From contig NZ_QWET01000001.1 of NCBI RefSeq assembly GCF_003573545.1, positions 186,001 to 250,000 of the forward strand: a DNA stretch of 64,000 nt, read 5' to 3'. Both the position numbers and the translations under genes were made by a program. Of this stretch, positions 8,019 to 64,000 are shown in pieces. The notes under the pieces were generated by a model. The model ran no database searches and was not told where the DNA came from. It saw only the letters and a program-made list of their open reading frames with translations. How positions within the stretch are numbered: the stretch's first letter is position 1; each line of letters starts with the position of its first letter. Source of the DNA: Mariniphaga sediminis. GTDB taxonomy: Bacteria > Bacteroidota > Bacteroidia > Bacteroidales > Prolixibacteraceae.

Positions 8019-8042
8019 TTGTTTCAAAACTTTCTGTTGAGG

Positions 8043-8118: not shown

Positions 8119-8126
8119 TATTTTTG
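8119..8126 (+). promoter_or_regulatory. Candidate -7 box TATTTTTG
   Basis: An exact match to the Bacteroidota -7 consensus TAnnTTTG, 52 bp upstream of the second Gfo/Idh gene. A TTTG at 8086-8089 lies 29 bp upstream, which is too far for the normal 19-20 bp spacing, so the -33 element is poor. It could give an internal, regulated start within the operon. Confidence 0.35.
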
Positions 8127-8178
8127 ACTTTAGACCGTTTAGTAACAGTTCTTTTAGTGAATTTCAAAATTATAAATC

Positions 8179-9192: not shown

Positions 9193-9214
9193 ATGCTTCT
9201 TCAAAAACAGAAGT

Positions 9215-10657: not shown

Positions 10658-10678
10658 TCTTTGCTAAAACATAAAATT

Positions 10679-13314: not shown

Positions 13315-13337
13315 AAGTACCATTTTTATATCATAAT

Positions 13338-25842: not shown

Positions 25843-25854
25843 AATCAGTAGTCT

Positions 25855-26751: not shown

Positions 26752-26758
26752 TGAATTT

Positions 26759-29866: not shown

Positions 29867-29878
29867 ACTATTGAACCA

Positions 29879-31591: not shown

Positions 31592-31607
31592 TATAAAAAT
31601 GTGTGCC

Positions 31608-33026: not shown

Positions 33027-33035
33027 TAATGAAAG

Positions 33036-33065
33036 AGTATTTCCCGGAATTGTCCGGGAAATACT
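33036..33065 (+). terminator. Perfect 13-bp hairpin within the fructan operon
   Basis: AGTATTTCCCGGA (33036-33048) and TCCGGGAAATACT (33053-33065) pair perfectly around a 4-base loop ATTG and are followed by a T-rich run (TTGTTTATGTTT). It lies between the surface-binding gene and the first GH32 gene. It could be a partial intrinsic terminator or an mRNA-end stabiliser that keeps susCD-type transcripts more abundant than the enzyme transcripts. Confidence 0.6.
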
Positions 33066-33093
33066 TTGTTTATGTTTAATCATATAAATAGTA

Positions 33094-34653: not shown

Positions 34654-34667
34654 TAAAAACGAGAGCG

Positions 34668-36047: not shown

Positions 36048-36119
36048 TGACAGAGAGCATGCAGGCATTTGCCAATTAAACGAAAGATTTTAAGAGAAAC
36101 ACTTAATCGAACAAAATAT

Positions 36120-48846: not shown

Positions 48847-50244
48847 TCAAAGCGATTGATTATTTATAAGGTTAGCAGTGCCAGAAACTACATCGATAAC
48901 ACCATTTGTATAGTTATTAATTATAAGGTTCCCTTTACCACCCTGAATTCTGATAGACACAGGGTTTCTGCTATCAGGACGATCGTCATTAATATAATTA
49001 CCGGATACCTTACCATTCTCTGAATCTTTTAATAAGATACCTTCCCCGTTGCAATTTAGTATCGTTGAATTCATGAAATTATAATTACGGCATCGCTCCA
49101 ATATTATATTTGTTGGACTGACTGAATTATTACTGAGATGAAATCCATTTACTGTAATATTACGACTGTCCCTAATTATTACACTGTTATTACTTTCTGT
49201 GCCATAATCAGGATTTCTATCTAGTATATTTGTGCCAAAAACTATATGATCACTATGTTCTACTAGAATGTTAGAAGAGAACCCTTCTCCAAATGCGTTG
49301 CCAGTAATGATTATTCCCCGGGCATATTTAATATGTAAATTTTGCTGAGTATCACTCAGTATATTGTTGGCAATTGTAAAATAACCCGTTTTGTGTCTGG
49401 TCTCTGTTCCATGTCCAATAAATCTTATGTTTGCTGACCCTATCCCATTATGATTATGCTGAATGGTGCATCCGATTATCGAACCCTCCCGCATTGAGCC
49501 TTCCGTTATATCTATTAATACATTGGCCGATGGTGGGCCGTTTATGTCTATATTACTTTCAATATCACAACTGCCTATCTGGAAATTTCGAATTTCTCCT
49601 TTATGTACTACTATACCTCCGCCTCCATTATAACTAATATGACAATTTGTAATATTTATCTGATGAAGGTTAAGTTCATCAAGAAAGATACCAACTCCTC
49701 GATTGTTATACAAATTGCATTCGGAAATAATTATGTTACGGTTTCGTTTAGACAGATGAATGCCATGGAGGGTCTCCCGAACAAGAACTCTGGTAATAAT
49801 AAGTTGCAATGTTTCAATGGCTTCAATCCCTTTTGATATAGGATGTCTTCCGATAATTTCAATGCCATCGATTATGGGCATTCGTTGATTATGCCACACA
49901 TTCTGTTTTACGGTGTAGGGATCAGCGGTACCCGTGTGGGTTCCAACAAATTTAAATGCTGGACCGGCTCCGTTCATCATAACCTTAGCAGTACCATTAC
50001 CAATTATGGCAATAGGCCCTGATTGGTTAAGATCAATCAAGATGGGGGCAGTAAGCCTATATACACCTGAAGGGAAAGAGATTTGTCCAATTCCGGAATC
50101 AACTGCTTTCTGAATAGCTTCTGTATCATCTGATATACTATCTCCTTTTGCTCCAAAGTCCTTTACATCCATGGCGTTGCAAACTCCAAAAATAAATAAT
50201 GAACAAAAGAATAGTACAACTTTATTATTAATAGTCCTTTTCAT
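48847..50244 (-). CDS. Secreted right-handed beta-helix protein (pectate-lyase-3-like)
   Basis: A 465-aa protein with a signal peptide (about 1-24, ending CNA). It then has the VKDFGAKGDSISDDTEAIQKA start that marks the pectate-lyase-3/GH28-like superfamily, followed by many parallel beta-helix rungs (about 150-450) with Asn-rich turns such as NNRGVGIF and NHNGIGSANI. It may be a polysaccharide lyase, epimerase or binding protein. No catalytic residues can be fixed by eye. It is the last gene of the region 6 operon and overlaps the preceding gene by 17 bp. Confidence 0.75.
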   Translation of the reverse strand: MKRTINNKVVLFFCSLFIFGVCNAMDVKDFGAKGDSISDDTEAIQKAVDSGIGQISFPSGVYRLTAPILIDLNQSGPIAIIGNGTAKVMMNGAGPAFKFVGTHTGTADPYTVKQNVWHNQRMPIIDGIEIIGRHPISKGIEAIETLQLIITRVLVRETLHGIHLSKRNRNIIISECNLYNNRGVGIFLDELNLHQINITNCHISYNGGGGIVVHKGEIRNFQIGSCDIESNIDINGPPSANVLIDITEGSMREGSIIGCTIQHNHNGIGSANIRFIGHGTETRHKTGYFTIANNILSDTQQNLHIKYARGIIITGNAFGEGFSSNILVEHSDHIVFGTNILDRNPDYGTESNNSVIIRDSRNITVNGFHLSNNSVSPTNIILERCRNYNFMNSTILNCNGEGILLKDSENGKVSGNYINDDRPDSRNPVSIRIQGGKGNLIINNYTNGVIDVVSGTANLINNQSL

Positions 50245-50980
50245 TTTTATAAACTTTTATTTTTACTTTATCTATTAGTTTAGGCTTTGGACGAATAACT
50301 GATATTTGTATGCTGTCAAATATATTTTTTGCTGTTGTAATGCCATCGCCTACCGGTTCAATTTTGTTCTCTCCATCTAACCATTTTGATTGAGCAACAA
50401 TATCAGGTGTGTAAATCATCCCTTCTGCTGCAATTATTTCAGCTTTATATAGCAATGCAGGTTGGCCGGTGGCAAATTCATCCTCCTCGAATGTTTGAAG
50501 ATTAAGTTCAGGGAATGCTTCATTATAGTCACCCGCCAAATTCACCTCGATCCAGCAAAACCACTTCGTACCGGGCTTTACTTCAATACGTATAGAAAAA
50601 TAATCTTTTTTTGGAGTTGCCCCTGTCACTGCCATAAATTTTTCATCTTCAATAATTGTAAAGGGAGTATTTTCTTCCATAAAAAGATCATACCATCTTG
50701 GTAAAGCAACAGGAACATGCGTTTTGCCTTCCCAATCGCCAGTACTAGCACGATGAGTTACAAAAACAGTTTTTAGTTCATGTGTCCTGATATTTTCAAT
50801 CCAGATAGCGAATTGAGGTGGCTCTGCGTAAGTTGAAAGCGCTATTATATCTAAATTTTGGCAAATATCAATCTGAATTTTTGTCCTGTTCAAAGTCTGA
50901 AAAATTAGCAATCCTGCCATAATAAGGAGGAAGGCCAGACCTGTAAAGAATACAAATAAAATATTTTTATATTTTATCAT
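50228..50980 (-). CDS. Membrane-anchored DUF2271-like protein
   Basis: A 250-aa protein with an N-terminal transmembrane or uncleaved signal helix (about 7-27) and an exported domain. The pattern FAIWIENIRTHELKTVFVT, then RWYDLF, VTGATPKKDYFS and a Trp-rich strand WFCWIEVN resembles DUF2271, whose function is unknown. No catalytic motif is recognised. It lies between a Gfo/Idh gene (14 bp upstream) and the beta-helix gene (overlapping), implying tight co-expression. Confidence 0.55.
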   Translation of the reverse strand: MIKYKNILFVFFTGLAFLLIMAGLLIFQTLNRTKIQIDICQNLDIIALSTYAEPPQFAIWIENIRTHELKTVFVTHRASTGDWEGKTHVPVALPRWYDLFMEENTPFTIIEDEKFMAVTGATPKKDYFSIRIEVKPGTKWFCWIEVNLAGDYNEAFPELNLQTFEEDEFATGQPALLYKAEIIAAEGMIYTPDIVAQSKWLDGENKIEPVGDGITTAKNIFDSIQISVIRPKPKLIDKVKIKVYKNEKDY

Positions 50981-50994
50981 TAAATCTATATTTC

Positions 50995-52257
50995 TTATTC
51001 ATTAATAACTTCCGCTATTTCATAGCCCTCTCTATAGATTCTGTTATCTAGAAAATTGGCTTCTTCTGAGTTTGTTATTTTTTTTCCGTCAAAGAGAAGA
51101 TGTTTTTTTCCTGCTCTGTAAGACAAATTGGCAAGATGCACTAAATTTGCACTGCAATGGCCTTGTTTAATATCACCATTTGGTATTTTCCGGGTACGAA
51201 CTGATTCTAAAAAATTTTGTTGATGGGCTTCATCAGGGAAATATCCATATTCTTCATCCAAAACTTGTGAATCATTCCCTATAACCTGCCAGCCACCACC
51301 ATGTCTTCCCAGATACATCATCGCTTCGGTACCATAAATTTCAATGCGGGTGCTGTTTAATTGCCAGTTTGGGAATAAGTTCCCATGTCTAATCTCAGTG
51401 GAGGTCTTTGAAAGGTAATTTCCGTACTTGGAGCTTTCACAGGTCATAAGAAAATTTCCATAATCAAAAGTTATGGTTTGGTAGTCGGGGACTTCCCTGT
51501 TATCATCAAATAAAACCCTACCCCCGGCACAATACACTGAATTAGGAAAATCAGGATCTCCAATTACCATACGTGCCAAGTCTAAAACATGTGAAGCATC
51601 ACCTGCCAGAACTTGTCCCCCCGAATAAGCCCACCAATCATACCAAGCCTTGTGCCTGCTAACGTTATAGGGAACCATAGAAGCAGGGCCGAGCCAAAGA
51701 TCCCAGTTTAACCCTTCCGGTATTTCTGAATTAGGTTTTAAAATCCAAGGACTACCCCCTGGGAGCATGCAATAGGTTTTTACCAAAACAATTTTTCCTA
51801 ATTTACCGCTTTGAATATAATCGCGAGCCGAAAAAGAATAAAGTGCACTGCGGTTTTGTGTTCCACATTGGATAATCCTGTTGTATTTTTTAGCCGCCTC
51901 AATCATTTTTTCTCCTTCCGAAATTGAAAGTGATATGTTTTTTTCTACGTACACATCCTTACCTGCCTGGCAAGCCCATACTGTTGCCAATGCATGCCAA
52001 TGCTCAGGGGTCGCAATTATTACTGCATTAACATCTTTATCATCATAGACATGGCGCATGTCTTCCACATATTTAGGCTTTTTTTTCTGTCTTTTTTTCA
52101 ATACGCTGATTGCTCTACCCCCACGACCTTTGTCAACATCGCAAACATATTTAACCTCAACGCCAGAACAGTTTTCCTGAGTACTAAGGATTAACTGTGT
52201 TCCTCTGGCTCCGGCACCAATAAGCGCTAAAATTATTTTGTCATTTGTATCAGCCAT
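50995..52257 (-). CDS. Gfo/Idh/MocA-family oxidoreductase, cytosolic
   Basis: A 420-aa oxidoreductase without a leader. The Rossmann motif is ALIGAGARGT (11-20); PEHWHALAT (about 84-92) precedes the lysine motif, here EKN (105-107) instead of EKP, keeping Lys106. GGQVLAGDASHVLDLARMV carries the active-site His. It closely resembles the exported neighbour at 52342, and the two share the EKN variation, so they may have duplicated locally. It should interconvert hydroxyl and keto groups on a sugar-like substrate with NAD(P). Confidence 0.83.
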   Translation of the reverse strand: MADTNDKIILALIGAGARGTQLILSTQENCSGVEVKYVCDVDKGRGGRAISVLKKRQKKKPKYVEDMRHVYDDKDVNAVIIATPEHWHALATVWACQAGKDVYVEKNISLSISEGEKMIEAAKKYNRIIQCGTQNRSALYSFSARDYIQSGKLGKIVLVKTYCMLPGGSPWILKPNSEIPEGLNWDLWLGPASMVPYNVSRHKAWYDWWAYSGGQVLAGDASHVLDLARMVIGDPDFPNSVYCAGGRVLFDDNREVPDYQTITFDYGNFLMTCESSKYGNYLSKTSTEIRHGNLFPNWQLNSTRIEIYGTEAMMYLGRHGGGWQVIGNDSQVLDEEYGYFPDEAHQQNFLESVRTRKIPNGDIKQGHCSANLVHLANLSYRAGKKHLLFDGKKITNSEEANFLDNRIYREGYEIAEVINE

Positions 52258-52341
52258 TATATACTTCCTGTAATTATTTTGTTTGAATATTGTTAGAGTA
52301 GATAGTTCCTGTTTTTAAATTATTTTTCTTTTAAATAAGAA

Positions 52342-53706
52342 TTAAATTTTATCAGGTATTTTATAGTTCTCTCTGTACGTAGTTTTTATATATTCATTCG
52401 CTTTTTTATCGTTTGTAAACTGCTCATTTTTACTATCAAAATACAGTTGTTTGTTTCCTGTACGATATGCAATATTTGCCAGGTGGACGAGGCAGGCACT
52501 TAATTGTCCCTGTACAACATCTCCATTTGGTTGTTTGCGACTTCTTATGGATTCGATGAAGTTTTGCTGGTGGTCCATATCAGGCATTGTACCACCATCC
52601 TGGGCAATTATTTCCGAATTTTCACCAATAACCTGCCATCCGCTGCCATGAGGGCCAAGGTACATCAAACCTTCCGTACCATATATTTCAATCCTCATTG
52701 CATTAATTCTCCAATCAGGGAAAAGATTGGAATTCATTAGGATATTATTAGGTGTTTTCTTCATGTAATTTGTTGCATTTCCACTATCGCATGTCATGGT
52801 GAAGCCTTCAAAATCATATGTGATTGAAATAAATTCAGGGGTTTCCTTTTCAGACCCCCAAGGCCAGTTGCCACCATAGGCAAAAACCGATTTTGGTTGC
52901 GGAGGATCCCCTATTACAAAACGAGCCAGGTCCATAACGTGGCTTGTCTCGTCCGATAGTACCCCACCTCCGAAAGCCCAAAAATCGAACCAGCCACTAC
53001 GTTCTTCTGAAGTGGTTATTGCCGGATTGTAAGGACGATAAGGGGCAGGCCCCAGCCATGCGTCCCAATTAATCCACCCGGGAGCTTTCTTGTTGGGTTT
53101 TGGTATCCATTTTTTACCACTAAGTAGGTTGAAACATTTTACATGTATTATTTTCCCTAGTTTACCACTCTTTATATAGCTACGTGCGGAAAAAGCTGAT
53201 GATGCACTGCGGTTTTGAAATCCAATTTGTACTATTCTTTTGTATTTCTCCACTGCTTCAATCATTTTACGCCCTTCCCATATACTTATAGTAGGATTCT
53301 TTTCTACATATACATCTTTCCCTGACTGACAGGCCCAAATAGTTGCTAAAGCATGCCAGTGATCAGGAGTAGATATCCACACGGCGTCTATATCTTTATC
53401 ATTGAAAACCTCCTTCATATTTTTAACAAACACAGGCCTGTATCCCAATTCTTTTTCAATCTCCTTTATGGCCTTGGTCGCTTTTAATTCGTTAACGTCG
53501 CAAATTGTTTTTATCTCAACATTTTCATTACATCTGCAGGTGCAAATTATGGAACGAGTACCCCGCGTGCCAGAACCTATAAGACCAAGTATAATCTTGT
53601 CGTTAACCATATGACAAGAATGCAATGGGAAAATTGATGCTCCAAGTGATATTCCCGTAATACCAGTAACAGTAGTATTGATGAAATTTCGTCTGTTTAT
53701 GTTCAT
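52342..53706 (-). CDS. Gfo/Idh/MocA-family oxidoreductase with twin-arginine leader
   Basis: A 454-aa homologue of the previous gene, with a twin-arginine leader (INRRNFINTT, 3-12) and a hydrophobic segment ending at a possible lipobox (PLHSC, Cys31), so a Tat-exported, perhaps lipid-anchored, enzyme is likely. The Rossmann motif GLIGSGTRGT lies at 41-50 and EKNP at 135-138. With the cytosolic copy it forms a periplasmic/cytosolic oxidoreductase pair, mirroring the pair in region 1. The start places the RR motif at the extreme N-terminus. Confidence 0.83.
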   Translation of the reverse strand: MNINRRNFINTTVTGITGISLGASIFPLHSCHMVNDKIILGLIGSGTRGTRSIICTCRCNENVEIKTICDVNELKATKAIKEIEKELGYRPVFVKNMKEVFNDKDIDAVWISTPDHWHALATIWACQSGKDVYVEKNPTISIWEGRKMIEAVEKYKRIVQIGFQNRSASSAFSARSYIKSGKLGKIIHVKCFNLLSGKKWIPKPNKKAPGWINWDAWLGPAPYRPYNPAITTSEERSGWFDFWAFGGGVLSDETSHVMDLARFVIGDPPQPKSVFAYGGNWPWGSEKETPEFISITYDFEGFTMTCDSGNATNYMKKTPNNILMNSNLFPDWRINAMRIEIYGTEGLMYLGPHGSGWQVIGENSEIIAQDGGTMPDMDHQQNFIESIRSRKQPNGDVVQGQLSACLVHLANIAYRTGNKQLYFDSKNEQFTNDKKANEYIKTTYRENYKIPDKI

Positions 53707-53744
53707 CGTTTTTAAGATGGCGTATTAATTTTATATCCTCGAAT

Positions 53745-54662
53745 TCATTGCTTTTGTTGATGAAATTGAATGAATCTTCTAAATATTATTAATAAAGTAT
53801 TCCATGGGAACTCTGAGAGAATCATCAAAATCAGGACGGTAGGATTAAAATAGATTGAAGCTAGAACGATAGCCATACTATTATTCATATAAGCAGCACT
53901 AACTGATATAGCCACTTTGTCTTCCAAATTTTTCTTATGGCCCGCTAAAAATCCTAAAATATGAAGCAGGATAAAAACCACATACAAAAATCCAGCCTGC
54001 CAAAGAATATTCATGAAATCATTGAATATGATATTGCGTTGTGATCCGATTACCACATATACCATCAGGGAAAGCATTAAAATATTTAATGATGTAAACA
54101 AGTGGGTTCTTTTCTCTATTTCTTTAGGAGAATATCTTTTTATAACCTGAGAAAGAACCATTGGGAGGAATACTATGAGTGCCAGATCTTTAAAGACCAA
54201 CCCAAGGTCGAATGATATGTTATCAAAATTTATTATCCGGAATAACAGAGGAATAGTAAAAGGAGCAACCAGTGAGGTTAGAATTGCTAGGCTTGCCGAT
54301 AATGCTGTGTTACCCTTAACAACGTCAGTCAGCGCAGGGGTTGCCACGCCAGCTGGCATTGCTGTAAGTAACAAGACACTAATAGCCAATTCACGGTCAA
54401 AAATATTGGTGATCCCAAACAGCAACAACGGTATAACTACCATGAAGGATATGACAAGGAATATCATTTGCCTGTAATTTTTCATTCTTTTAAATACCTG
54501 AGCAACATCTATCTTTAAAAAAACGAAGAATAGCATTACCATCAAAAATGGTTTTAGCAGCGACATTAAAAAGACATTAAAAACAGGATAAGTTAGACCG
54601 AGTAGAATTCCAGCCATAAAAAAAGCCCAAAAATATTTTTCTATAACTAAATTTTTCTCCAT
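53745..54662 (-). CDS. BASS-family (bile acid:sodium symporter-like) transporter
   Basis: About 305 aa from the ATG at 54662; a TTG at 54680 would overlap the Nramp-fold gene stop. It has about nine to ten hydrophobic helices and the cross-over region MPAGVATPALTDVVKGNTALS (about 97-117) characteristic of the BASS fold. These Na+-coupled carriers move organic anions, including sugar-acid-like and keto acids. Adjacent oxidoreductase and LarA-like genes suggest an organic acid. Confidence 0.75.
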   Translation of the reverse strand: MEKNLVIEKYFWAFFMAGILLGLTYPVFNVFLMSLLKPFLMVMLFFVFLKIDVAQVFKRMKNYRQMIFLVISFMVVIPLLLFGITNIFDRELAISVLLLTAMPAGVATPALTDVVKGNTALSASLAILTSLVAPFTIPLLFRIINFDNISFDLGLVFKDLALIVFLPMVLSQVIKRYSPKEIEKRTHLFTSLNILMLSLMVYVVIGSQRNIIFNDFMNILWQAGFLYVVFILLHILGFLAGHKKNLEDKVAISVSAAYMNNSMAIVLASIYFNPTVLILMILSEFPWNTLLIIFRRFIQFHQQKQ

Positions 54663-54676
54663 GTAGTTCTTTAAAA

Positions 54677-55948
54677 TCAAAAAATAGAATTAAAGGATGT
54701 AATTAGCCCAATAACTGATTGATAAGAGATTATTAATGAGAAAATAAATGTCAACAGAAGTCCGGTGTTTAACCAATAACCAGCTTTATATTCTCCCATC
54801 AAATCCTTTCTGTTCAGCAAATAAATGATTGCCAGAACGACAACCGGCAATACAAAAATCTGAAATAACTGGCTAATTAACATAGCAAAAACCGGCCGTA
54901 CACCTAATAAAGGCACGATTAATCCGAATAAAATAGCAATTCCGGTAAGAATCCGAAACTGGAAACCTTTATAATTAATGGATTTATTTCTGTAGTCTCC
55001 AATTAACAACGGTGCCAGCATTGCTATTGGAAATATTGAAGACAATGCGGCACCCAGAATTCCCATAACAAAAATGGAAAGCGCAAAACGACCAAGCAAT
55101 GGTTCTACTAGTGTAACCATCGTGATTACTTCCTCCACAGGCTTGTTGATAACGTAAAGTGTTCCTGCGGCACATGCCATAATAGCCCCACTCACTAAAA
55201 ATATTAATATCACGGCAACAATTGCGTCTTTTCTCTGCTGTTTCATCTGTTTTAACTTCCACTTTTTTTCTTTGAGTAAAGTACTACGCACAACAAAGGT
55301 TGGGGCAGTCAGGGTGGTGCCGACAAGGGCCGCAATAATCATCGGCGCATTTGTATTATCAGGAATAGTAGGGATAAGCCCTTTTGCCAATTCCCCCGGT
55401 TCAGGTAAAACCAGAAACATAGTGAGGATAAAGCTTAGTCCCATGGCGGATACAAAGACAATTAGCACTTTCTCGAAAAATGAGTATTCGCCCAATAAAA
55501 TCAAGATATATAAGATGATTATAATTGAACCTGCAACCCAAAGAGGATTCCACCCATTTCCCCCAAACAGGAGTACGGACCATTCCTTGATTAGGTTAGC
55601 TATTATTCCCATGATCCCAATCAAGGCCAATATTTCAACGATTATTAATCCGACAAGTGTAATTAATGCAAGAAGAGATCCAAATTGCTTAAAATGTTTT
55701 TTATAGCTGTACAATGCCCCCTCTCCTGTGACCAGCGCATACCGGCCATAGGCTTCCAGCATTACAAAGCTGAATATACAGGAAAGTGCCAGCGCCCACA
55801 GAAAAGACAAGCCAAATCGTGAGCCTGCCGAAGCCATAGCTACCACACTGCCCGTACCAACACTATATCCAACCAGAAAAAAACCAGGCCCCACGGAAAC
55901 CATAAGGTTCCATAAACGTTTTAAAATAAAGCCTTTATTATTTAACAT
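54677..55948 (-). CDS. Nramp-fold transporter lacking canonical metal-site residues
   Basis: A 423-aa membrane protein with about 11 helices. The opening GPGFFLVGYSVGTGSV (20-35) aligns to the first helix of Nramp, where the metal-binding DPGN reads GTGS here. The helix-6 segment GTTLTAPTFVVRS aligns to G-A-x-x-M-P-H-N of metal transporters and lacks both Met and His. The fold is retained but the divalent-metal site appears absent, so it probably transports something else. Its place between BASS and LarA-like genes hints at an organic substrate. 14 bp separate its stop from the BASS start. Confidence 0.75.
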   Translation of the reverse strand: MLNNKGFILKRLWNLMVSVGPGFFLVGYSVGTGSVVAMASAGSRFGLSFLWALALSCIFSFVMLEAYGRYALVTGEGALYSYKKHFKQFGSLLALITLVGLIIVEILALIGIMGIIANLIKEWSVLLFGGNGWNPLWVAGSIIIILYILILLGEYSFFEKVLIVFVSAMGLSFILTMFLVLPEPGELAKGLIPTIPDNTNAPMIIAALVGTTLTAPTFVVRSTLLKEKKWKLKQMKQQRKDAIVAVILIFLVSGAIMACAAGTLYVINKPVEEVITMVTLVEPLLGRFALSIFVMGILGAALSSIFPIAMLAPLLIGDYRNKSINYKGFQFRILTGIAILFGLIVPLLGVRPVFAMLISQLFQIFVLPVVVLAIIYLLNRKDLMGEYKAGYWLNTGLLLTFIFSLIISYQSVIGLITSFNSIF

Positions 55949-55980
55949 GTTTCCGGATTTTATATTGACTTTTTAAGATA

Positions 55981-57270
55981 TCAAATGATATCCTCTAACT
56001 GAAGGGACGAAGTTTCTTCTTCTATTTCCCATACAGGGAGTATTTCTCCACTGTTATTAACGATTCCTATTTTTAAATTCCTGTCTAGTTCTATACGCTT
56101 ACTAATGTATTTTTGTAGATCGTCTACCGCTAGGTAGTAAAATCCCATCATGTTGGCCAACATGGGTTGATTCATTGTTAATGTCATTTTATAGTTACGC
56201 TTGACATAATTTAGGTACATACATTCAGAAGCAGCGAAGCGATCGCCAATAACATCATCATCCAGCATTTTCCATAAGGTACTGTCATCATGTCTGGCCA
56301 AACGACACATTTCTTCTTCGTGGGTAGGGGCAATACCTTCTTCACATGGTGACAATAGGATGATTTCTCCACCTGGTTTTGTGGCTCGTTCAGCAGAGAA
56401 CATGCCTTTATCTGCCTGGGTAAGATCATAGTCAAACGGAAAAGAACTGCTCAGTGTGATATCTGCTTTTTTGCGGAATTTTACCCCATTAATTGTTAAA
56501 CCCCATTTAATAATTTCCCTATGTGCATGAATAAAATGACCGGATACTGCTTTTACCAGCTTGTTTTTTTCATTTAATATTACATTTACTATAAAATGTA
56601 ATCCTACTTCTTTTGCAAAATCTTCCATCTCCTCACGCATGGGCGTTAATACCTTTCCCAGTTGTGCTTCTGTCGCCCCTAACAAATGCATTGCATTGAC
56701 TGTTTCTGTCCCTGCTACCCCTGGCAGAAGCATCTTGGCCCCACCGCTCCAGCCGGTAGGATGGTGGGGCAGGGATGCACCAACCGCAATCCGTATGTCT
56801 GCATCAAGTACGTTTTTATTAACGAGAATCCTGGTTCCTCTTCGCGTCAGACCCTTGTTGACTAAATTACTGTGGCAGTTATGATTTTGGATTTCAACTC
56901 TGTTTACAATATCCTCTCCAAACCTTTCCAGTATTTCTTCTTTAGTCATATCCCTGTGTGTTCCGGTGGCAATTACCAGCTTAATTTGACTGTCGTCCAC
57001 CCCCGCACTGTTTAATTCTTCCAAAACAAATGGGAGTATTAGTTTCTGTGGGGTTTTTCGTGTTCGATCATCAACCATGATTACAACCGATGAACCTTTC
57101 TGTACAATTTCTTTTAGCCTTTTTGAACCTACAGGCACCTCGAGAGCCCTTCTTATTTCATCTTCTTCACTCTCTGGAGCTTGAAAATTATTCCTCTTTA
57201 GGTTAAAGCAAAGGTTTTCATCAGGGATATCCAACTTAATTATTTTTTTTCCAAAATGGACAGGTATCAT
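55981..57270 (-). CDS. LarA-family nickel-pincer racemase/epimerase
   Basis: A 429-aa LarA/DUF2088 protein. Conserved residues are visible: VDDRTRKTP (66-74), ATGTHRD with His105, LPHHPTGWSGGAK with a His at 169/170 and Lys179, the residue that covalently holds the nickel-pincer cofactor, and His195, the expected nickel ligand. LarA homologues invert the alpha carbon of 2-hydroxy acids, including lactate and sugar acids. No larB, larC or larE cofactor genes are in the window. The neighbourhood of Gfo/Idh and TIM-barrel genes favours a sugar acid or related hydroxy acid over lactate. Confidence 0.87.
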   Translation of the reverse strand: MIPVHFGKKIIKLDIPDENLCFNLKRNNFQAPESEEDEIRRALEVPVGSKRLKEIVQKGSSVVIMVDDRTRKTPQKLILPFVLEELNSAGVDDSQIKLVIATGTHRDMTKEEILERFGEDIVNRVEIQNHNCHSNLVNKGLTRRGTRILVNKNVLDADIRIAVGASLPHHPTGWSGGAKMLLPGVAGTETVNAMHLLGATEAQLGKVLTPMREEMEDFAKEVGLHFIVNVILNEKNKLVKAVSGHFIHAHREIIKWGLTINGVKFRKKADITLSSSFPFDYDLTQADKGMFSAERATKPGGEIILLSPCEEGIAPTHEEEMCRLARHDDSTLWKMLDDDVIGDRFAASECMYLNYVKRNYKMTLTMNQPMLANMMGFYYLAVDDLQKYISKRIELDRNLKIGIVNNSGEILPVWEIEEETSSLQLEDII

Positions 57271-57315
57271 TTCTTAATTTATCTTATGAATTTTAATATT
57301 TACAGCAGTAAATGG

Positions 57316-58164
57316 TCAGCCCATAGCAGTCTCAGCTTCCTCCAGTAGTGACAGAACAACTTTTTTACTTTTATAGGCTGCAGCATCAGGATTGGCTGTA
57401 TAATCAAATCCCAGTTCTACTGTTAAAAATCCTTTATACCCGATTTCAAGTAAAGCACGAAAAAAGGGTACAAAGTCTATTGTTCCTTCACCAGGTATTT
57501 TATGCTGATCTCCCATCGTATTGTTATCGTCCAAATGGATATGAATCGGGATTTGTTTTTGGTTTAACAGATAGACTGCATCCACCAACGATTCTTTATT
57601 AATATGGCAATGTCCTGTGTCCAATGCAATTCCCATATTGTTATAACCCTGTTCTTCAATTAGCCTTGCACCATCTTCAATGGTTAATATAAGATCGCTT
57701 TCTAACATGTGGGCAGGTTCCAACAATAGGAGCACATCTTTTTTAATAGCATAATTAACCAGTGCAGAGAGACTGAAATTTAAATTTTCCATTCCCTGCT
57801 TATAACCTTGACCGTATAGCGTCCGTCCAGGACAAAGGCTGACTTTTTTACAGCCCAGAGCAAGGGAGGTATCGATACTTTTTTTTATGTATTCAACACT
57901 ATTTTTCCTGATATTTTCAATTGGACTGCATAAATTTGTCGGATAACCGAACTGTGCCGGAATGAAACCAGATATTTCTGTACCGGTTTCGTTAATTGCA
58001 TCTATTATTGATGAGATACTTTCTTTGTCCATGTCTTTGTAATAGGCATGTGGACGGCCACCCCAGATTTCAACTCCAGGGTAGCCTGCTTTTGATGCCC
58101 TTCTGATAGTGTCTTCAAGCCTGTAATTATAATACAGCTTTGTTGAATAACTTAATTTCATCAT
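57316..58164 (-). CDS. TIM-barrel sugar isomerase/epimerase
   Basis: A 282-aa xylose-isomerase-like TIM-barrel protein (AP-endonuclease-2 superfamily). Typical metal-ligand segments are visible: GVEIWGG near 35, the LLLEPAHM strand near 150 (Glu), ALDTGHCHI (Asp/His), HIHLDDN...GDQHKIPGEG, and the final TVELGF Glu. Members isomerise or epimerise sugars and keto-sugars or cleave 3-keto-glycosides. It lies 9 bp before its paralogue in the same operon. Confidence 0.82.
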   Translation of the reverse strand: MMKLSYSTKLYYNYRLEDTIRRASKAGYPGVEIWGGRPHAYYKDMDKESISSIIDAINETGTEISGFIPAQFGYPTNLCSPIENIRKNSVEYIKKSIDTSLALGCKKVSLCPGRTLYGQGYKQGMENLNFSLSALVNYAIKKDVLLLLEPAHMLESDLILTIEDGARLIEEQGYNNMGIALDTGHCHINKESLVDAVYLLNQKQIPIHIHLDDNNTMGDQHKIPGEGTIDFVPFFRALLEIGYKGFLTVELGFDYTANPDAAAYKSKKVVLSLLEEAETAMG

Positions 58165-58173
58165 GGCAATAGA

Positions 58174-59052
58174 TTATTCTGCAATTAGTTCCTCTACGAG
58201 ATTTTTCATCTTCACTGCCTCTTCAAGAATATTATCGATTCCGCTGATATCAACAACAACATGCCCATCAAAATTGACTTTTTTCAGGGTATCAATAATA
58301 TTTTTGAAATCAATATTCCCTTTTCCGGGCTGGTAATGGTAAGGCCGTGTACCATCATTATCAGAAAGGTGCACCAGTTTAAGATATTTCCCTAACTTGT
58401 ATATCCCCAGGTCAAGGTATTCGTTGATAGCATTTGCGTGTGCAACATCGTACACCATCCCAATGTTTTTTACATTACAATCATTAAATATGCTGATGAT
58501 ACCGTCAACAGAAGAGATAAAATCCCCGGCACGCATTTCCATGGCAAACTGCAGGCCGTTTTGGCTGGCAATAGCCGATGACTTCTGAAGTTGTTCTATA
58601 ACAATCCCCCTAAGGTCAGACCACCGGAAACCTTCCGGTACATCAACTGCTACCGAAGGGCCTCCATGATAAATGGAAGTCCTTTCTTTTGGTACCATTT
58701 CGGGAGGCAGGTAGAAACAGTTAGTAATCATTTTTGCACCAATCCCAGCGGTCATTTCGCATATTGTGGCAAAATCTTCCAGAGACTTATCACGTTTTGC
58801 CTTGTCCAGAGAAAACATCTCGTAGGTTACAGCCATAATGCTTACTACGTCGAGCTTTAGACTCTGGGCATGATTAGTTATTGTATCCCAGTTTGCTTTG
58901 TAGTCATCATACTCACCGGCAACGATCTCCATCTCCATAGTATTAAAGCCGGCATCAGTAATTTCACCCATCACTTTCAGGATATTGTTTACACTTGGCG
59001 GCAGGCCGTACAATGTTATTGGGATTGTAAACCCACATGTTACTTTCATCAT
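58174..59052 (-). CDS. TIM-barrel sugar isomerase/epimerase, second copy
   Basis: A 292-aa member of the same superfamily. The FAMEMRAG strand supplies the first Glu, VYDVAHAN the Asp/His pair, and LVHLSDNDG plus QPGKGNIDF the next ligands. The last ligand position reads VVVDISG, Asp rather than Glu. The sequence is only distantly related to the upstream-encoded neighbour, so the two probably do successive or different reactions. It is 29 bp from the ceramidase-fold gene that precedes it in transcription. Confidence 0.8.
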   Translation of the reverse strand: MMKVTCGFTIPITLYGLPPSVNNILKVMGEITDAGFNTMEMEIVAGEYDDYKANWDTITNHAQSLKLDVVSIMAVTYEMFSLDKAKRDKSLEDFATICEMTAGIGAKMITNCFYLPPEMVPKERTSIYHGGPSVAVDVPEGFRWSDLRGIVIEQLQKSSAIASQNGLQFAMEMRAGDFISSVDGIISIFNDCNVKNIGMVYDVAHANAINEYLDLGIYKLGKYLKLVHLSDNDGTRPYHYQPGKGNIDFKNIIDTLKKVNFDGHVVVDISGIDNILEEAVKMKNLVEELIAE

Positions 59053-59081
59053 AATAATTTACTTTTGTTGTGAAATCTGTT

Positions 59082-60650
59082 TTATAGTTTTTGTAATATT
59101 TCTATTACTTTTTCTTCGTATATTTTTTGCCATTCAGGAGCCAACAGATTACTATGGTCCTGATAGGCACCGCTTCCGGACTGTTCGGCTGTAGTCGCAT
59201 AATGGATATAACCATTGGTATAACCCGCAACAAAGGTATTTTCAAATGGCGACATTTTTTTTATATTAAGCCCTACCTGTACAGACACTTCTGCGGGGAA
59301 GGTTATAAGAACAAAATCCCCGATTTTCATCACCTGTACTTCAACATCCATAGTACTCTCACCTGCAGATTCATTCTCAACCTTACGATCCTTTTCCAGC
59401 CCTAAATTATACTGCAGTCTTGAAAGTTTTTCCATGGCATGAATATTTCTCAGGTATTTATCTATATTCCGCCTGTTTGCAGCATCAAGCTTTTCCATGT
59501 CGTTCCTACCAATCATTTTGTCATGAAGATACCTATGGGAATAATAGGAGGGATATTCTTCCCAAAGATTATATTTTATGAACAAGGGCAAAAAAGTTTT
59601 AAAGTTCAGGCTTGTGCCCTTTAAGGAGTTAAGAAGTTCTCCCTGCTTCTTCTCCATCTCTGCAATTCTTTCAGCATGATCAGTTCGCCTGGGAAATTTA
59701 ACTGTTTCATTTATTACTTGCAGTTCGCCACTTTTTTCTGTATTTATATTCTTAAAGGCTTCTATCGCACTTAGACCCAACATGGTTCCCAGCGGTTCTT
59801 GATCCCTGACACTATGAACATCCTTATAAAGGCTTGGGATGACATCTCCGCAAAAACCTTGAATAAAAAGCGCCATAGTCCCTTCACCCAGATTTTCTTC
59901 AATTAATTTGGATGCAAAACCAGGATATCCAGCTGTTTGTTCTGTAATTGATTGATAGGGATGGCCTGTGAAATTATATACAACTGCAAGTGGATCCCCA
60001 TTTTTCTTGTCAAGTCTCAATATCCCTATCTCCGGATCAATAGGACCTACACTTTCAATCTCTTCATCTGGTGGTAGCGGATTTGCATGGCGAATAGCCC
60101 ACCCCTTACCATTTTTTAATTTTAGAATGTGATTTTGAGTAATCCTATCTTCATACCCTGATCCTACTCCTATATTGACCGGTATCATATTTTGAGAGGC
60201 TTTTTTTACAGCCTGAAAAGTATAATCCTCAATATTCGGGCTAACGTTATACCCTGCTCCATGCAAATGGCTTGCATTTACAAGAACATTTGTCCGATCT
60301 ATGCCTAAATCTGCTTTTATTCTCGACCGTATATTCTCTAGGTAATTATCTCCAATTGAACCTATTCTTCCAATTGCAACTGCGTCAACTGAGATAATTA
60401 TGGCCTTGGTATCTCCATTATCAAGTACCAGGGCTTTAACATATAATGAATCTGTGACATTACTTGTTGGGTCAGGGTTTGTTATATTTACCTTTGATAC
60501 TCCTGCTTTAAGCTGGGCAGAAACAGTAGAAGCAAGGAGTATGAAGCAGGCAAATACCGATAAAGAAACAATATTATCCAGTTTGAAATTTTTGCTGGTA
60601 ATCTTGATAACTAACCCAATTATTCTAGTATAAATTGATCTTTTGTACAT
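59082..60650 (-). CDS. Neutral-ceramidase-fold secreted protein, copy A
   Basis: A 522-aa protein with an extended N-region and a signal sequence cleaved near VSA-QLK (residue 45). The metal motif reads SHLH (127-130) and His230, Glu454 (PAE) and Tyr484 complete the neutral-ceramidase zinc set by eye. The nucleophile region reads GDVIPS (268-273), with Ile in place of Ser. It probably hydrolyses an amide or ester in the periplasm. It is the third of three tandem paralogues in transcription order and shares the motifs KGTSLNFKTFLPL and EEYPSYYSHRYL with both. Confidence 0.8.
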   Translation of the reverse strand: MYKRSIYTRIIGLVIKITSKNFKLDNIVSLSVFACFILLASTVSAQLKAGVSKVNITNPDPTSNVTDSLYVKALVLDNGDTKAIIISVDAVAIGRIGSIGDNYLENIRSRIKADLGIDRTNVLVNASHLHGAGYNVSPNIEDYTFQAVKKASQNMIPVNIGVGSGYEDRITQNHILKLKNGKGWAIRHANPLPPDEEIESVGPIDPEIGILRLDKKNGDPLAVVYNFTGHPYQSITEQTAGYPGFASKLIEENLGEGTMALFIQGFCGDVIPSLYKDVHSVRDQEPLGTMLGLSAIEAFKNINTEKSGELQVINETVKFPRRTDHAERIAEMEKKQGELLNSLKGTSLNFKTFLPLFIKYNLWEEYPSYYSHRYLHDKMIGRNDMEKLDAANRRNIDKYLRNIHAMEKLSRLQYNLGLEKDRKVENESAGESTMDVEVQVMKIGDFVLITFPAEVSVQVGLNIKKMSPFENTFVAGYTNGYIHYATTAEQSGSGAYQDHSNLLAPEWQKIYEEKVIEILQKL

Positions 60651-60659
60651 CTTTTTAAT

Positions 60660-62225
60660 TTAAAAATTGGTTAAAATTTTTTTGACTTTTTGTTCATAGA
60701 TATATTGCCATTCAGGAGCCATAATGCAATATGTATCTTCCAAGGCATGAGTCTTATACTGTTCTGCTGTGGGTGAATAGCCCACATCTCCGTTGGAATA
60801 TGCAGTTACAAAGGTATTTGGGAAAGGCGATAACTCCTTAATGTTAAGGCCGATTTGGGCAACAGGTTCACCAGGGAATGTTACTAATACCATATCACCA
60901 ATTTTTAAACACTGTATCTCAAAATCAATAGTTTTTCCAATTTTTGTAGCCAGTCTTTCTTGCTGTTCCATTAAAATTGAGAGATTGTTCTGAATCCTTG
61001 TGAGTTTTTCCATTGCATATATATTTCTCAGATACTTGTCAAGATTTCTGAGGTTTTCTTTGTCAAGATTTTCAAGATCTTTGGAGTCGGTCATTTTTTC
61101 TCGAAGATACCTGTGAGAATAATATGAAGGATATTCCTCGAAGATACTGTATGTAATATATAAAGGGAAGAAAGTCTTGAAGTTAAGACTTGTACCCTTC
61201 AAAGATCGCAATAGCTTTTCCTGTTCTTTTTCCAATGATGCGATTCTTTCAGAAATATCGGTTCTCGAAGGGATTTCTATTACCTCTCTTATACCTTTTA
61301 ATTCGCTGTTTTTTGAAGTATTAATGCTCTTTAGTGAGGTTAAAACGCTTATACCTAGTTTGTTCCCTAGTGCTTCTGCATCTCTGGGACTATTTACGTC
61401 TTTGTATAAAACAGTTGAAATATCACCAAGGCTACCCTGTAGAAAAATCGCCATTGTTCCTGCTGGAAGATTATTTTCAATTACCCTTGAGGAGAAGGCC
61501 GGAACGTCAGCTGTAAGTCCATTATTTGGGACTCCTTGATAGGGGTGCACTGCAAAGTTATAAAGAATAGCAAGAGGGTTACCATTTTTTTTGTCAAGCC
61601 TCAGTATCCCAATCTCAGGATCAACAGGGCCTATACCTGCTACTTCCTCATCGGGAGGTAAAGGACTGGCATGCCGGATTGTCCACTCTTTTCCATTGGT
61701 TAATTTTAATCTGCGGTTCTCAGTTATCTTATTTTCTTTACCAATTCCAACACCAATATTTACTGGAACCAAATTTTGATAGGCGTTCCTGACCGCATTA
61801 AATATACGCTCTTCAATATCCGTACATATAAATTTTTCACCTGATACGCCTGTGGCAGTAATCATTACGTTGTTACCATCAATTTTCAGTTGATTCTGTA
61901 TTTTGTTACGAAGCCTTTCGGTGAAATTTATTCCAACTCCGCCTTTTTCTCCCATGGCCCTTGTGTCAAGACTTATTATAACTAGACTTTCTAATTTGTT
62001 GTCAAGTACCAGTATCCGGGCATATAAAGAATCATTAATTAATCTATTGATATCCTTTCTCGTAATATTAACTTTGGCAATGCCAGCTTTAAGTTGGGCA
62101 GCATCTGCTACGATAGTTCCTAGCAGAAGGGATAGTCCTGTCAAAAGTAGTATAAGGTATATTTTGAGCGAGATAAAAATATGCTTACAGGTAAATTTAA
62201 AATTCGAACGATAAAATAAACTCAT
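60660..62225 (-). CDS. Neutral-ceramidase-fold secreted protein, copy B, metal motif lost
   Basis: A 521-aa tandem paralogue with a signal sequence ending near ADAA-QLK. The first zinc motif, SHLHG in its neighbours, reads TGVSG here (125-129), so both His residues are replaced. The second His (NFAVHPYQ), the PGE Glu and the Tyr (VGYSPT) remain, and the nucleophile region reads GDIST. Loss of the main ligand suggests an inactive or modified copy retained for binding or as a partner. Only 9 bp separate it from copy A. Confidence 0.8.
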   Translation of the reverse strand: MSLFYRSNFKFTCKHIFISLKIYLILLLTGLSLLLGTIVADAAQLKAGIAKVNITRKDINRLINDSLYARILVLDNKLESLVIISLDTRAMGEKGGVGINFTERLRNKIQNQLKIDGNNVMITATGVSGEKFICTDIEERIFNAVRNAYQNLVPVNIGVGIGKENKITENRRLKLTNGKEWTIRHASPLPPDEEVAGIGPVDPEIGILRLDKKNGNPLAILYNFAVHPYQGVPNNGLTADVPAFSSRVIENNLPAGTMAIFLQGSLGDISTVLYKDVNSPRDAEALGNKLGISVLTSLKSINTSKNSELKGIREVIEIPSRTDISERIASLEKEQEKLLRSLKGTSLNFKTFFPLYITYSIFEEYPSYYSHRYLREKMTDSKDLENLDKENLRNLDKYLRNIYAMEKLTRIQNNLSILMEQQERLATKIGKTIDFEIQCLKIGDMVLVTFPGEPVAQIGLNIKELSPFPNTFVTAYSNGDVGYSPTAEQYKTHALEDTYCIMAPEWQYIYEQKVKKILTNF

Positions 62226-62248
62226 TTCCGCTTCAGATTAATTTGTTA

Positions 62249-63790
62249 TTATATATTGTTTAATATATCTAAAACTTTTTCTTCATATATCTCTTGCCAT
62301 TCAGGTGCGATAAAGCAATCACAATCCTCCTGTACGCCTCCATTATATTGTTCAATTGTTGGGGCATAGTAGATGTAGCCATTAGTAAATCCTGCTGTGA
62401 ATGTAAATTTATGAGGTGACATATTTTTAATGTTCAATCCTACTTCTACTGAAACCTCACCCGGAAAAGTTACCATAACAAAATTTCCAATTCTTATACC
62501 CTGTATTTCGATATCGATTGTAGGTTCACCTGCATCTTCATTGGATTTTTGATGCTCTTGCAGTAAAGAGATATTAGCAAGAAGGCCTGCCAGTCTGTCC
62601 ATTGCATAAATATTGCTAAGATATTTATCAATATGACCCCTGTTCTCCTTATCCAGTTGTTTCAGGTCGTTCCTGCCAATACTCTTTTCGTGCAGATATC
62701 TGTGTGAATAATAAGACGGATACTCCTCAAAAAGATTATACTTGATATATAGTGGTAGAAAAGTTTTAAAATTGAGACTGGTATTTCTCAGTGATTTAAG
62801 AAGCCTGTCTACTTCAACTTCCATAGATTCAATTCGTTTCTGGAAATCTGTCCGGCGGGGTAATTTTATTATTTCATTTACAACTTTCAAACTGCCATTA
62901 TTGGTGGTTTGAATTGTTTTAAGTGCCGACATTGTGCTAATTCCCAGCTTAGTGCCTAATACTTCAGCATCCCGGGGAGTATTCACATCTTTGTAAAGGA
63001 TTGTTGAGATATCACCTCCAAACCCCTGAATAAATAAGGCTATTGTACCCTCACTAAGATTATCCTCAATTATCTTTGAGGCAAATCCAGGGAAATCAGC
63101 TGTTGCTTCCTTGTTAGGGACTCCTTGGTAAGGATGTCCTGCAAAATTGTAAACAACAGCTAAGGTTTCTCCATTCAACTTATCAAGGCGTAATATACCT
63201 ATTTCATAATCTTGCGGGCCAAGGTCAATAACCTCTTCGTCAGGTGGCATAGGATAAGCATGCCTGATGTCTGCCTCTTTCCCATTTTTAAGCTTAAATC
63301 TTCTGTTTTCAGTGATTCTGTCTTCGTATCCCTTGCCAACACCTGTCCTTACTGGAACCATATTTTGCATTGCTGATTTGACAGCTTTTACTGTTCGCTG
63401 TGCAATATCGGGACAGACGTTATAGCCAGCACCATGAAGATGGCTTGCATTGACAAGAATATTTTTACTAATTATATTTAGGTCCCTTTCTATTTCTGAC
63501 CTTACTCTTTCAAGATAACCATCATCTATTGATCCAATTCCTCCAATAGCCACAGCATCGACAGTTATTATTGCGGCTCTGACCCCATCGTTTTCAAGTA
63601 CCAGGGCTTTCACATATAATGAATCATTAACAGCAGGATATGAATCTGTATTTGTTATATCTACCTTTGCAACACCTGCTTTTAGCCAGGCAGCCTCAGC
63701 GCTGCCTGAATATATAATTCCTGAGATCCCGGGAGAAATAATAGTATATAAAATCAACCTTTTGAGAATTTTCTTTGTCAGTAAAGCCAT
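62249..63790 (-). CDS. Neutral-ceramidase-fold secreted protein, copy C
   Basis: A 513-aa tandem paralogue with a signal sequence ending near AEAA-WLK. The metal motif SHLH is intact (116-119), as are His219 in NFAGHPYQ, Glu in FPGE and Tyr in IYYAPT. The nucleophile region reads GDIST, so a Ser is present next to the Asp-Ile pair, unlike copy A. It is the first of the three tandem genes transcribed, 23 bp from copy B. The substrate is unknown; ceramide is unlikely given the operon. Confidence 0.8.
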   Translation of the reverse strand: MALLTKKILKRLILYTIISPGISGIIYSGSAEAAWLKAGVAKVDITNTDSYPAVNDSLYVKALVLENDGVRAAIITVDAVAIGGIGSIDDGYLERVRSEIERDLNIISKNILVNASHLHGAGYNVCPDIAQRTVKAVKSAMQNMVPVRTGVGKGYEDRITENRRFKLKNGKEADIRHAYPMPPDEEVIDLGPQDYEIGILRLDKLNGETLAVVYNFAGHPYQGVPNKEATADFPGFASKIIEDNLSEGTIALFIQGFGGDISTILYKDVNTPRDAEVLGTKLGISTMSALKTIQTTNNGSLKVVNEIIKLPRRTDFQKRIESMEVEVDRLLKSLRNTSLNFKTFLPLYIKYNLFEEYPSYYSHRYLHEKSIGRNDLKQLDKENRGHIDKYLSNIYAMDRLAGLLANISLLQEHQKSNEDAGEPTIDIEIQGIRIGNFVMVTFPGEVSVEVGLNIKNMSPHKFTFTAGFTNGYIYYAPTIEQYNGGVQEDCDCFIAPEWQEIYEEKVLDILNNI

Positions 63791-63859
63791 ATATTATTTT
63801 TTAGATTATTCGAATTCCCTACATCGTAGAGAAGCATGAAATGTCTAATAGTCAATTTT

Positions 63860-64000
63860 TTATTTTAGTTTTAAATACTTGTCAAGAAATTGTAATGTTC
63901 CTACTCCATGAATCTCATGGGGCCCGTTAAAAAATTCAATCGTAGTACGATCACTAATTCCCAAGTTAGCATATAGTCGCCTAACCTTAGCATATTCATA
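63860..64000 (-). CDS. 3' end of an alpha/beta-hydrolase-like gene (partial)
   Basis: The - strand frame from the window edge to TAA at 63860-63862 gives 46 residues containing EFFNGPHEIHG and ending FLDKYLKLK. A late F-x-G-x-H followed by a helix and F-L-x-x-Y/W-L is the usual catalytic-His end of acetyl-xylan-esterase and dienelactone-hydrolase-like proteins. The rest is outside the window. It precedes the three ceramidase-fold genes by 69 bp, the same strand. Confidence 0.55.
   Translation of the reverse strand, partial: YEYAKVRRLYANLGISDRTTIEFFNGPHEIHGVGTLQFLDKYLKLK

Follow-up and report, generated by a model that had tools for sequence, protein, structure and literature searches.

A GTGS-type Nramp-related carrier beside LarA and TIM-barrel proteins in a putative sugar-acid operon of Mariniphaga sediminis

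Gene content of the locus

Here we describe a putative catabolic operon in the genome of Mariniphaga sediminis (5.83 Mb), and in particular an Nramp-like carrier that is encoded beside a homologue of the 2-hydroxy-acid epimerase LarA and two TIM-barrel proteins. The window, i.e. the whole stretch of 64,000 nucleotides that was analyzed, covers positions 186001-250000 of contig C1 of this genome (G000; genomes, contigs and loci are cited by our own G, C and L numbers). Protein families were assigned by Pfam and NCBIfam profile searches, and export leaders were judged by eye. Twelve genes lie on the minus strand between positions 48847 and 63790 of the window, with no intergenic gap above 84 bases and two overlapping gene pairs, and a thirteenth runs over the window edge:

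48847..50244, minus strand: right-handed beta-helix protein, pectate-lyase/RHG-like superfamily (Pfam Beta_helix and Pect-lyase_RHGA_epim above cut-off)
50228..50980, minus strand: protein of 250 amino acids (aa) of no family (zero Pfam or NCBIfam matches)
50995..52257, minus strand: GfoC, Gfo/Idh/MocA oxidoreductase, no leader by eye (Pfam)
52342..53706, minus strand: GfoB, Gfo/Idh/MocA oxidoreductase, twin-arginine (Tat)/lipoprotein-like export leader by eye (Pfam)
53745..54680, minus strand: SBF/BASS-type carrier (Pfam SBF_like and SBF above cut-off)
54677..55948, minus strand: Nramp-related carrier of GTGS type, predicted sugar-acid carrier (PF01566 202 bits, motifs, tree, gene context)
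55981..57270, minus strand: LarA homologue, predicted 2-hydroxy-acid epimerase of the nickel-pincer nucleotide (NPN) type (Lar_N 201 bits, residues, LarB/LarC/LarE in the genome)
57316..58164, minus strand: TIM1, FrlC/IolO-like TIM-barrel epimerase, E-D-H-E (AP_endonuc_2 141 bits, TM0416/IolO alignment)
58174..59052, minus strand: TIM2, IolO-like TIM barrel, E-D-H-D variant (AP_endonuc_2 101 bits, MJ1311 and IolO alignments)
59082..60650, minus strand: cer1, putative zinc hydrolase of ceramidase fold, with leader (Ceramidase_alk at 38.4 bits over a cut-off of 32.1; alignment)
60660..62225, minus strand: cer2, ceramidase-fold protein, HxH motif lost (Ceramidase_alk 28.3 bits, under cut-off; alignment)
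62249..63790, minus strand: cer3, ceramidase-fold putative zinc hydrolase with leader (Ceramidase_alk 30.9 bits, under cut-off; AlphaFold2 model, profile alignment)
63860..64000, minus strand: 3' end of the gene for a double alpha/beta-hydrolase, or double esterase, of 773 aa (open reading frames (ORFs) beyond the window, Pfam)

The same-strand run extends upstream past the window edge to about 261.0 kb on contig C1, where the double alpha/beta-hydrolase is followed by a third Gfo/Idh protein (GfoA, with a leader by eye), SusD, SusC and FecR, and then, beyond a 465-base gap, by an extracytoplasmic function (ECF) sigma factor, so that all five of the latter are encoded outside the window. In ORF calls and Pfam matches, the SusC/SusD pair with its ECF sigma factor and FecR identifies a SusCD polysaccharide utilization operon, and spacing and strand suggest that approximately 18 genes would form a single operon, of which the window holds the distal two thirds. 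The original prediction of an uncharacterized catabolic operon on one strand is upheld, with its listed families all present and confirmed by Pfam and NCBIfam. It had also seen no evident glycoside hydrolase (GH), which is true of this part of the window, but related loci encode GH2, GH9, GH28, GH29 and GH42.

The GTGS-type Nramp-like carrier and its genomic context

The most novel element of the operon is the Nramp-like carrier, which had earlier been listed merely as one of two transporters (both of which, SBF and Nramp, are present). It is a member of PF01566 (202 bits; cut-off 29.8) and, with 84.8 bits, also exceeds the cut-off (50) of the NCBIfam model 'Nramp family divalent metal transporter'. 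When the carrier was aligned with solved Nramps as well as 19 canonical proteins from the same order, the canonical metal ligands were found to be gone, with the DPGN motif of transmembrane helix 1 (TM1) replaced by GTGS, and TM6 lacking MPH and carrying Thr for the ligand Ala. We compared a total of 45 GTGS-type proteins, all picked by similarity to the window protein (the window's own, six from the LarA modules described below and 38 from genome searches), in which GTGS, GTT and the TM6 Arg are invariant (45/45) and the Asp, Asn and Met ligand positions are changed in all. Two charged positions are invariant in the GTGS type and different in 19/19 canonical proteins, namely Arg221 in TM6 (canonical His) and, further on, Asp318 (canonical Gly). 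Measured against canonical Nramp/SLC11 proteins, the GTGS type thus matches PF01566 and is without DPGN and MPH in 45/45; measured against the NRMT magnesium carriers, as defined in PMC8806188 (papers are cited by accession, in each case from excerpts), the TM1 Asp (DxxG) is not kept, being Gly in 45/45.

The 45 proteins form a clade with support of 100/99 in a tree that flags long branches, including L227 and the outlier L247. The window's group of seven has as its sister (100/99) a group of 12, which consists of five KDG (2-keto-3-deoxygluconate)/lyase-type loci (L209, L211, L212, L213, L225) and seven mixed loci (L138, L139, L141, L142, L143, L208, L210). L247, from the source genome itself (contig C10), represents a third type of Nramp-like protein, whose TM1 reads LGPGS and whose tree position is far from both other groups.

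According to excerpts of PMC12873925, Nramp-related proteins are a diverse paraphyletic group without the metal and proton residues, in which the Mg2+ carrier EleNRMT is the member named with a substrate. An 'orphan' or outgroup type is placed beside NRMT in PMC10606218 and PMC9606685, this outgroup is described as possibly bridging metal carriers and those with non-metal substrates (PMC4072509), and the TM1 Asp is given as universal in SLC11 proteins and also kept in NRMT (PMC8806188). Among the matches listed in our open-access literature search, no sugar, sugar-acid or other organic substrate was assigned to an Nramp-related protein.

In order to describe the surroundings of these carriers, we searched genome samples at E 1e-40 and detected the carrier in 11/295 genomes of the order and 21/395 genomes of the phylum (own genome counted in both), with four copies each in two genomes. 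Loci analyzed were 19 from the order, 20 from the phylum (20 of the 21 non-own matches; G178 was left out) and 20 PF01566 control loci of the same order, from which L247 was dropped as a third motif type (n = 19). L144, whose ORF was not called, was left out of the motif count, tree and context test, leaving 18 order loci; read by position, it has GTGS, GTT and the Arg, with AP_endonuc_2 and enolase-family neighbors, and is uncounted. In the context test, 17 carbohydrate-catabolism reference proteins from our own loci were matched within three ORFs of the carrier. A match was found in 16/18 order and 17/20 phylum GTGS loci (33/38) vs 0/19 canonical loci, several of whose stretches are short and at contig ends. 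Seven of the references derive from five tested loci (L138, L146, L147, L152, L211), without which the count is 28/33. The matched contexts comprise hexuronate, KDG/lyase and amino-sugar genes.

A reference-free Pfam tally, covering up to two ORFs either side of the carrier, agreed with this result. For 78 GTGS neighbors, the top 25 of 66 families include GH2, AP_endonuc_2, GH20, GH88, GH127 and C5-epim_C, as well as KDPG (2-keto-3-deoxy-6-phosphogluconate) aldolase, phosphofructokinase (PFK), glucosamine isomerase, NAGidase, GH76 and Chondroitinas_B. For 70 canonical neighbors, the first 25 of 161 families include no glycoside hydrolase or sugar-catabolic enzyme family, but do contain SusD-like and TonB-receptor families, together with GTPase, cation efflux and housekeeping families. 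The gene order at individual loci is, e.g., RraA-like, UxaC (588 bits; cut-off 387), short-chain dehydrogenase/reductase (SDR), carrier and UxuA-like (156 of 191 bits) in L152; SDR, KDG-kinase-type, PFK-type, KDPG aldolase (371 bits; cut-off 275) and carrier in L212; and carrier, DGOK and a KDPG-aldolase family protein in L208. L147 carries NagA (245 bits; cut-off 226) and a NagB-like protein (156 of 237), with L148 and L149 similar, and the carrier of L146 adjoins a protein that resembles sugar-acid dehydratases, its best score being 240 of 650 bits.

A separate observation concerns the source genome, in which L249 (8534-9895, contig C20) encodes an Nramp-like protein with an SVVGSGE motif (GSGE), two genes before UxaC and with UxaE between; a KDG-kinase-type protein, a KDPG aldolase (374 bits; cut-off 275) and a tripartite ATP-independent periplasmic (TRAP) carrier follow after UxaC. 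This is a second DPGN-less Nramp type in a hexuronate operon.

LarA requires nickel, and TIM barrels of the TIM1/TIM2 kind require a metal. The carrier could therefore be a metal importer that serves LarA with nickel or the TIM barrels with manganese, which would also be in line with its PF01566 membership and NCBIfam match. We regard this as quite improbable, since the residues, displacement by another carrier type and the gene context all disfavor it: the Asp, Asn and Met positions are changed in 45/45, whereas NRMT Mg carriers retain the Asp (PMC8806188), a major facilitator superfamily (MFS) protein replaces the carrier in sister modules, and the GTGS clade has uronate, KDG and amino-sugar genes as neighbors in examined stretches that contain no LarA. 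Moreover, no Rfam match, e.g. a Mg riboswitch, was found in the window or in the upstream-extended stretch L005.

LarA, its partner enzymes and their recurrence in relatives

The LarA homologue has a Lar_N domain (201 bits; Pfam cut-off 23.3) and keeps H105, H169, K179 and H195 (catalytic His pair, NPN-linked Lys and a further His), as do all 12 module LarA proteins. LarB (303 bits; cut-off 175), LarC (228; 90) and LarE (280; 150) are encoded side by side on contig C12, where a 236 aa protein beside LarB has no NCBIfam match. Specificity positions were taken from PMC7583248 and carried over by alignment to Mar2 (6d6z, the nearest structure) and the module proteins. The pocket has His-Pro after the catalytic His (HHP), T284 for Tyr, D287 before the catalytic Lys, and F345, alike in 12/12 module proteins, and its specificity residues differ from those of both Mar2 and LarA1.

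Small acids are among the substrates that SBF, ACS-MFS and AEC carriers can transport. Together with the nearest family, LarAH6 malate racemase (332 bits), and the nearest structure, this could point to a malate or short hydroxy-acid (tartrate-like) pathway, in which LarA would be a malate racemase and the carriers would import a dicarboxylate freed by the esterase and ceramidase-fold hydrolases. We consider such a pathway unlikely. The pocket residues disfavor a malate racemase identity, in that Mar2 Tyr172, Lys173 and Lys351 (PMC7583248) align with His, Pro and Phe in 12/12 module LarA proteins, a difference that also separates them from LarAH6, and such a pathway would leave the TIM-barrel sugar epimerases without a role. 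With an Asp facing the side chain, the pocket would suit a polyhydroxy chain, and it is plausible that LarA acts on a sugar acid. The expectation that LarA handles a sugar acid rather than lactate is favored by the predicted pocket and the partner genes.

TIM1 and TIM2 match keto-sugar epimerases best, with FrlC and IolO as their respective best NCBIfam matches, both far below the curated IolO/FrlC cut-offs (91 of 300 and 136 of 305 bits). Among solved structures, MJ1311 comes first, then TM0416/IolO, with the 3-keto-glucoside 4-epimerase 6wn6 among the weaker matches. In alignments of the module proteins, TIM1 retains E-D-H-E in 11/11, positions that we take to be the ligands of ketose 3-epimerases, and TIM2 is E-D-H-D in 9/9. 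As a separate observation, TIM2-like barrels (approximately 22-28% identity) adjoin or lie near GTGS carriers in L144-L146 and L214-L223. The stretches examined at these loci contain no LarA, and GH20, GH2 or NagB-like genes accompany several of the barrels.

The Gfo/Idh proteins were central to the original prediction, in which they would oxidize a glycoside to the 3-keto form, a TIM barrel would eliminate the aglycone, and LarA would handle the released sugar acid. Three Gfo/Idh proteins do lie in the run, two of them with leaders by eye, their best curated name is glycoside 3-dehydrogenase BT_2158, and 6wn6 appears among the TIM-barrel matches. Yet the bit scores for that family are 118 (GfoC), 143 (GfoB) and 103 (GfoA) at a cut-off of 750, no DUF1080-type protein was found among the 18 operon proteins scanned with Pfam, TIM1 keeps the E-D-H-E set and, among relatives, Gfo/Idh is in the module run of just 2/11 loci (L016, L025; in L020 it is 9 kb off, on the opposite strand), a count that was rechecked with a profile built from 12 Gfo/Idh proteins. 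Glycoside cleavage by Gfo/Idh and a TIM barrel is not the conserved core of the module, and as an account of this operon we find it unlikely.

What does recur was determined from a scan of named genomes for LarA relatives, in which the best 80 of 110 were retained and 11 had at least 63% identity. Beside these 11 LarA genes, TIM2 and TIM1 are found in 7/11 loci, a ceramidase-fold protein in 8/11, an SBF carrier in 4/11 and the double esterase in 3/11. The Nramp-like carrier is present in 6/11 and an MFS carrier in 4/11, never both together in the stretches examined; all these counts are lower bounds, as the contigs of L022, L024 and L025 are just 3.3-4.8 kb. For both MFS proteins that were scanned, the best match is TIGR00893, the D-galactonate carrier subfamily (254 and 211 bits, short of the cut-off of 395), and the carrier slot of the module is taken by an organic-anion-type MFS or a GTGS-type 'Nramp'. 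By their record titles, the 11 loci belong to Bacteroidia/Bacteroidales and relatives, two Kiritimatiellae and one Chlorobiota. Of the co-occurrence on which the earlier proposal depended, a TIM2-TIM1-ceramidase-fold protein-LarA-carrier module recurs in Bacteroidota and Kiritimatiellae records, joined by Gfo/Idh in two of the 11 loci. A Chloroflexota record (L028) has LarA-TIM2-TIM1 (43-45% identity) adjoining an AEC-like carrier (110 of 246 bits).

Few genomes carry a close LarA relative (3/60, the source genome among them). In a TIM2 search at E 1e-50, which sampled 395 genomes of the phylum and 295 of the order, the source genome was the one match, which marks the module as rare; the TIM2-bearing relative G005 was evidently not in those samples. 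The open-access literature search listed, among its matches, no paper joining LarA with these partner families. In L043 (7478-11678, Caldilineae) and L048 (9959-14190, Aerophobetes), we also noted a divergent LarA that precedes a zinc-type dehydrogenase and an IolB/KduI-like protein, each labeled by eye, as well as a TIM1 homologue (52% and 44%), with ABC importer-like genes too.

The three ceramidase-fold proteins were correctly anticipated, though Ceramidase_alk is over its cut-off for cer1 only. An AlphaFold2 model of cer3 (predicted local distance difference test (pLDDT) 72) matches, at E <=0.001, neutral ceramidases only (4 chains; best 2zws, E 3.6e-17), and a profile of 11 ceramidase-fold proteins retrieves 2zws and 4wgk. 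In the alignment of the tandem neighbors, cer1 and cer3 have the HxH motif, which we take to be part of the zinc site of neutral ceramidase; cer2 no longer has it. The genome has 18 PF04734 matches, 8 of them over the cut-off. The Thermotoga-type inositol pathway consists of IolG, IolN and IolO; cer as its IolN was considered and rejected, PF04734 being absent in 14 control genomes including Thermotoga maritima, which is a weak test with cer2 and cer3 themselves under the cut-off.

Elsewhere in the window, a second cluster (72-15530) has two further ceramidase-fold proteins (72-1475 and 9131-10657; PF04734 matches) and, by eye, a PIG-L deacetylase, a NagB-like protein, an APC permease, a sugar kinase, two Gfo/Idh proteins and a sulfatase. 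A fructan-type locus, again by eye, lies at 24484-37745, with an MFS carrier, a PfkB kinase, a SusC/SusD pair and two GH32-like proteins.

A candidate sugar-acid route and its relation to known systems

We consider it probable that the GTGS clade of PF01566 comprises importers of sugar acids, and in some cases of amino sugars, with an invariant TM6 Arg where metal carriers have His, and that the window's operon pairs one of them with a new LarA specificity in a sugar-acid isomerization route. For the operon itself we lean, somewhat more cautiously, towards SusCD/ECF-type carbohydrate uptake with isomerization of an unusual sugar acid, in which the 'metal transporter' would be the sugar-acid carrier. 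All functions in the operon are predicted, as are the substrate class and the direction and order of the steps. A glycan or glycoside containing the unusual sugar acid would be taken up through the operon, and SusCD, the esterase, the ceramidase-fold hydrolases, the exported Gfo/Idh and the beta-helix protein would free or trim the acid outside the cytosol. The GTGS carrier, alone or with SBF, would then import it (as a hexuronate, aldonate or keto-acid), with Arg221 presumably pairing with its carboxylate. Within the cytosol, LarA would use its nickel-pincer cofactor to invert the carbon adjoining the carboxylate, and TIM1 and TIM2 would shift or invert neighboring carbons to give a keto-uronate, which may pass to UxaC/UxaE/KdgK/KdgA-type genes elsewhere in the genome, where UxaC, UxaE and KDPG aldolase are indeed encoded. 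Rhamnogalacturonan II (RG-II), iduronate, alginate and glucuronate were each considered as the specific substrate, and none was supported enough.

Several points weigh against this interpretation. The context test misses 5/38 loci (L150, L154, L210, L225, L227), L225 having a PL6-family (Chondroitinas_B) neighbor, and the GTGS loci are related rather than independent, with L214, L216-L219 and L221 near copies of one context. The NagA/NagB-like clusters around some carriers indicate that the substrates of the clade are probably not all acids. Other carriers stand near GTGS Nramps, i.e. MFS in L209, sodium/solute symporter (SSS)-type in several of L214-L221 and TRAP-type in L223 (the SSS and TRAP labels, like PFK/SDR in L209 and L213, were given by eye), and together with SBF in the same run this means that the Nramp-like protein need not be the importer. 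Arg221 is located by alignment only, because an AlphaFold2 model of the carrier, made with 7 sequences, reached a pLDDT of 39 and was not used. The nearest named family of LarA is a malate racemase, LarAH6, with 331.9 bits at a cut-off of 500. Finally, PF03786 (UxuA) was not found in the genome and the downstream route is incomplete as found, a gap that is perhaps filled by another dehydratase.

If the proposal is true, some branches of the Nramp fold carry organic solutes and others carry metals, which bears on the origin of metal selectivity in a fold that elsewhere moves organic solutes and gives a substrate answer for at least one group of Nramp-related proteins. The NCBI model annotation 'divalent metal transporter' (84.8 and 85.1 bits, cut-off 50) would then need correction. 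The GTGS carrier could supply the inner-membrane carrier for uronate use in Bacteroidota, and the LarA branch is a candidate for a new nickel-enzyme reaction in sugar-acid catabolism.

Among known systems, the Nramp-related outgroup ('orphan') and NRMT are likewise PF01566 members without DPGN and MPH, and NRMT shares the Thr for the TM6 Ala. The GTGS type differs from NRMT in lacking the TM1 Asp, in its invariant TM6 Arg and in its place within carbohydrate operons; it is linked to Cellier's 'orphan' group by description only, as given in excerpts. Like alginate utilization loci, in which the inner-membrane carrier is an MFS, SSS or tripartite tricarboxylate transporter (TTT) protein, GTGS genes also occur near KDG-kinase-type, KDPG-aldolase, SDR or PL6 genes (L209, L211, L212, L213, L225), but in the excerpts of PMC12472053, PMC8286568 and PMC13390454 import of monomers or oligomers is assigned to MFS, SSS or TTT, unlike in our proposal. 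A 'Nramp, metal-ion transporter' shown in Alteromonas alginate systems (excerpt of PMC6431674) is a separate sighting, set beside the GTGS type by its label only. With the LarA superfamily (LarAH6/Mar2, GntE, LarA1), the window's LarA has in common the Lar_N domain, the catalytic His pair, the cofactor Lys and the NPN biosynthesis genes, whereas its pocket (HHP / T-Q-x-D-K / F-x-x-SEC) is not among the signatures in the excerpts of PMC7583248 and PMC11770544, and it is located in a SusCD operon beside two epimerase-type TIM barrels. TIM1 shares family and E-D-H-E with IolO (TM0416, 5-keto-L-gluconate epimerase) and FrlC, and in TIM2 Asp replaces the last Glu. The cer3 model shares the fold of neutral ceramidase, and the stretches with HxH, the second His, Glu and Tyr can be aligned to 2zws, at 13-16% identity in the fold match; cer1 reaches 26 of 1200 bits with the curated neutral ceramidase model, and cer2 is without HxH.

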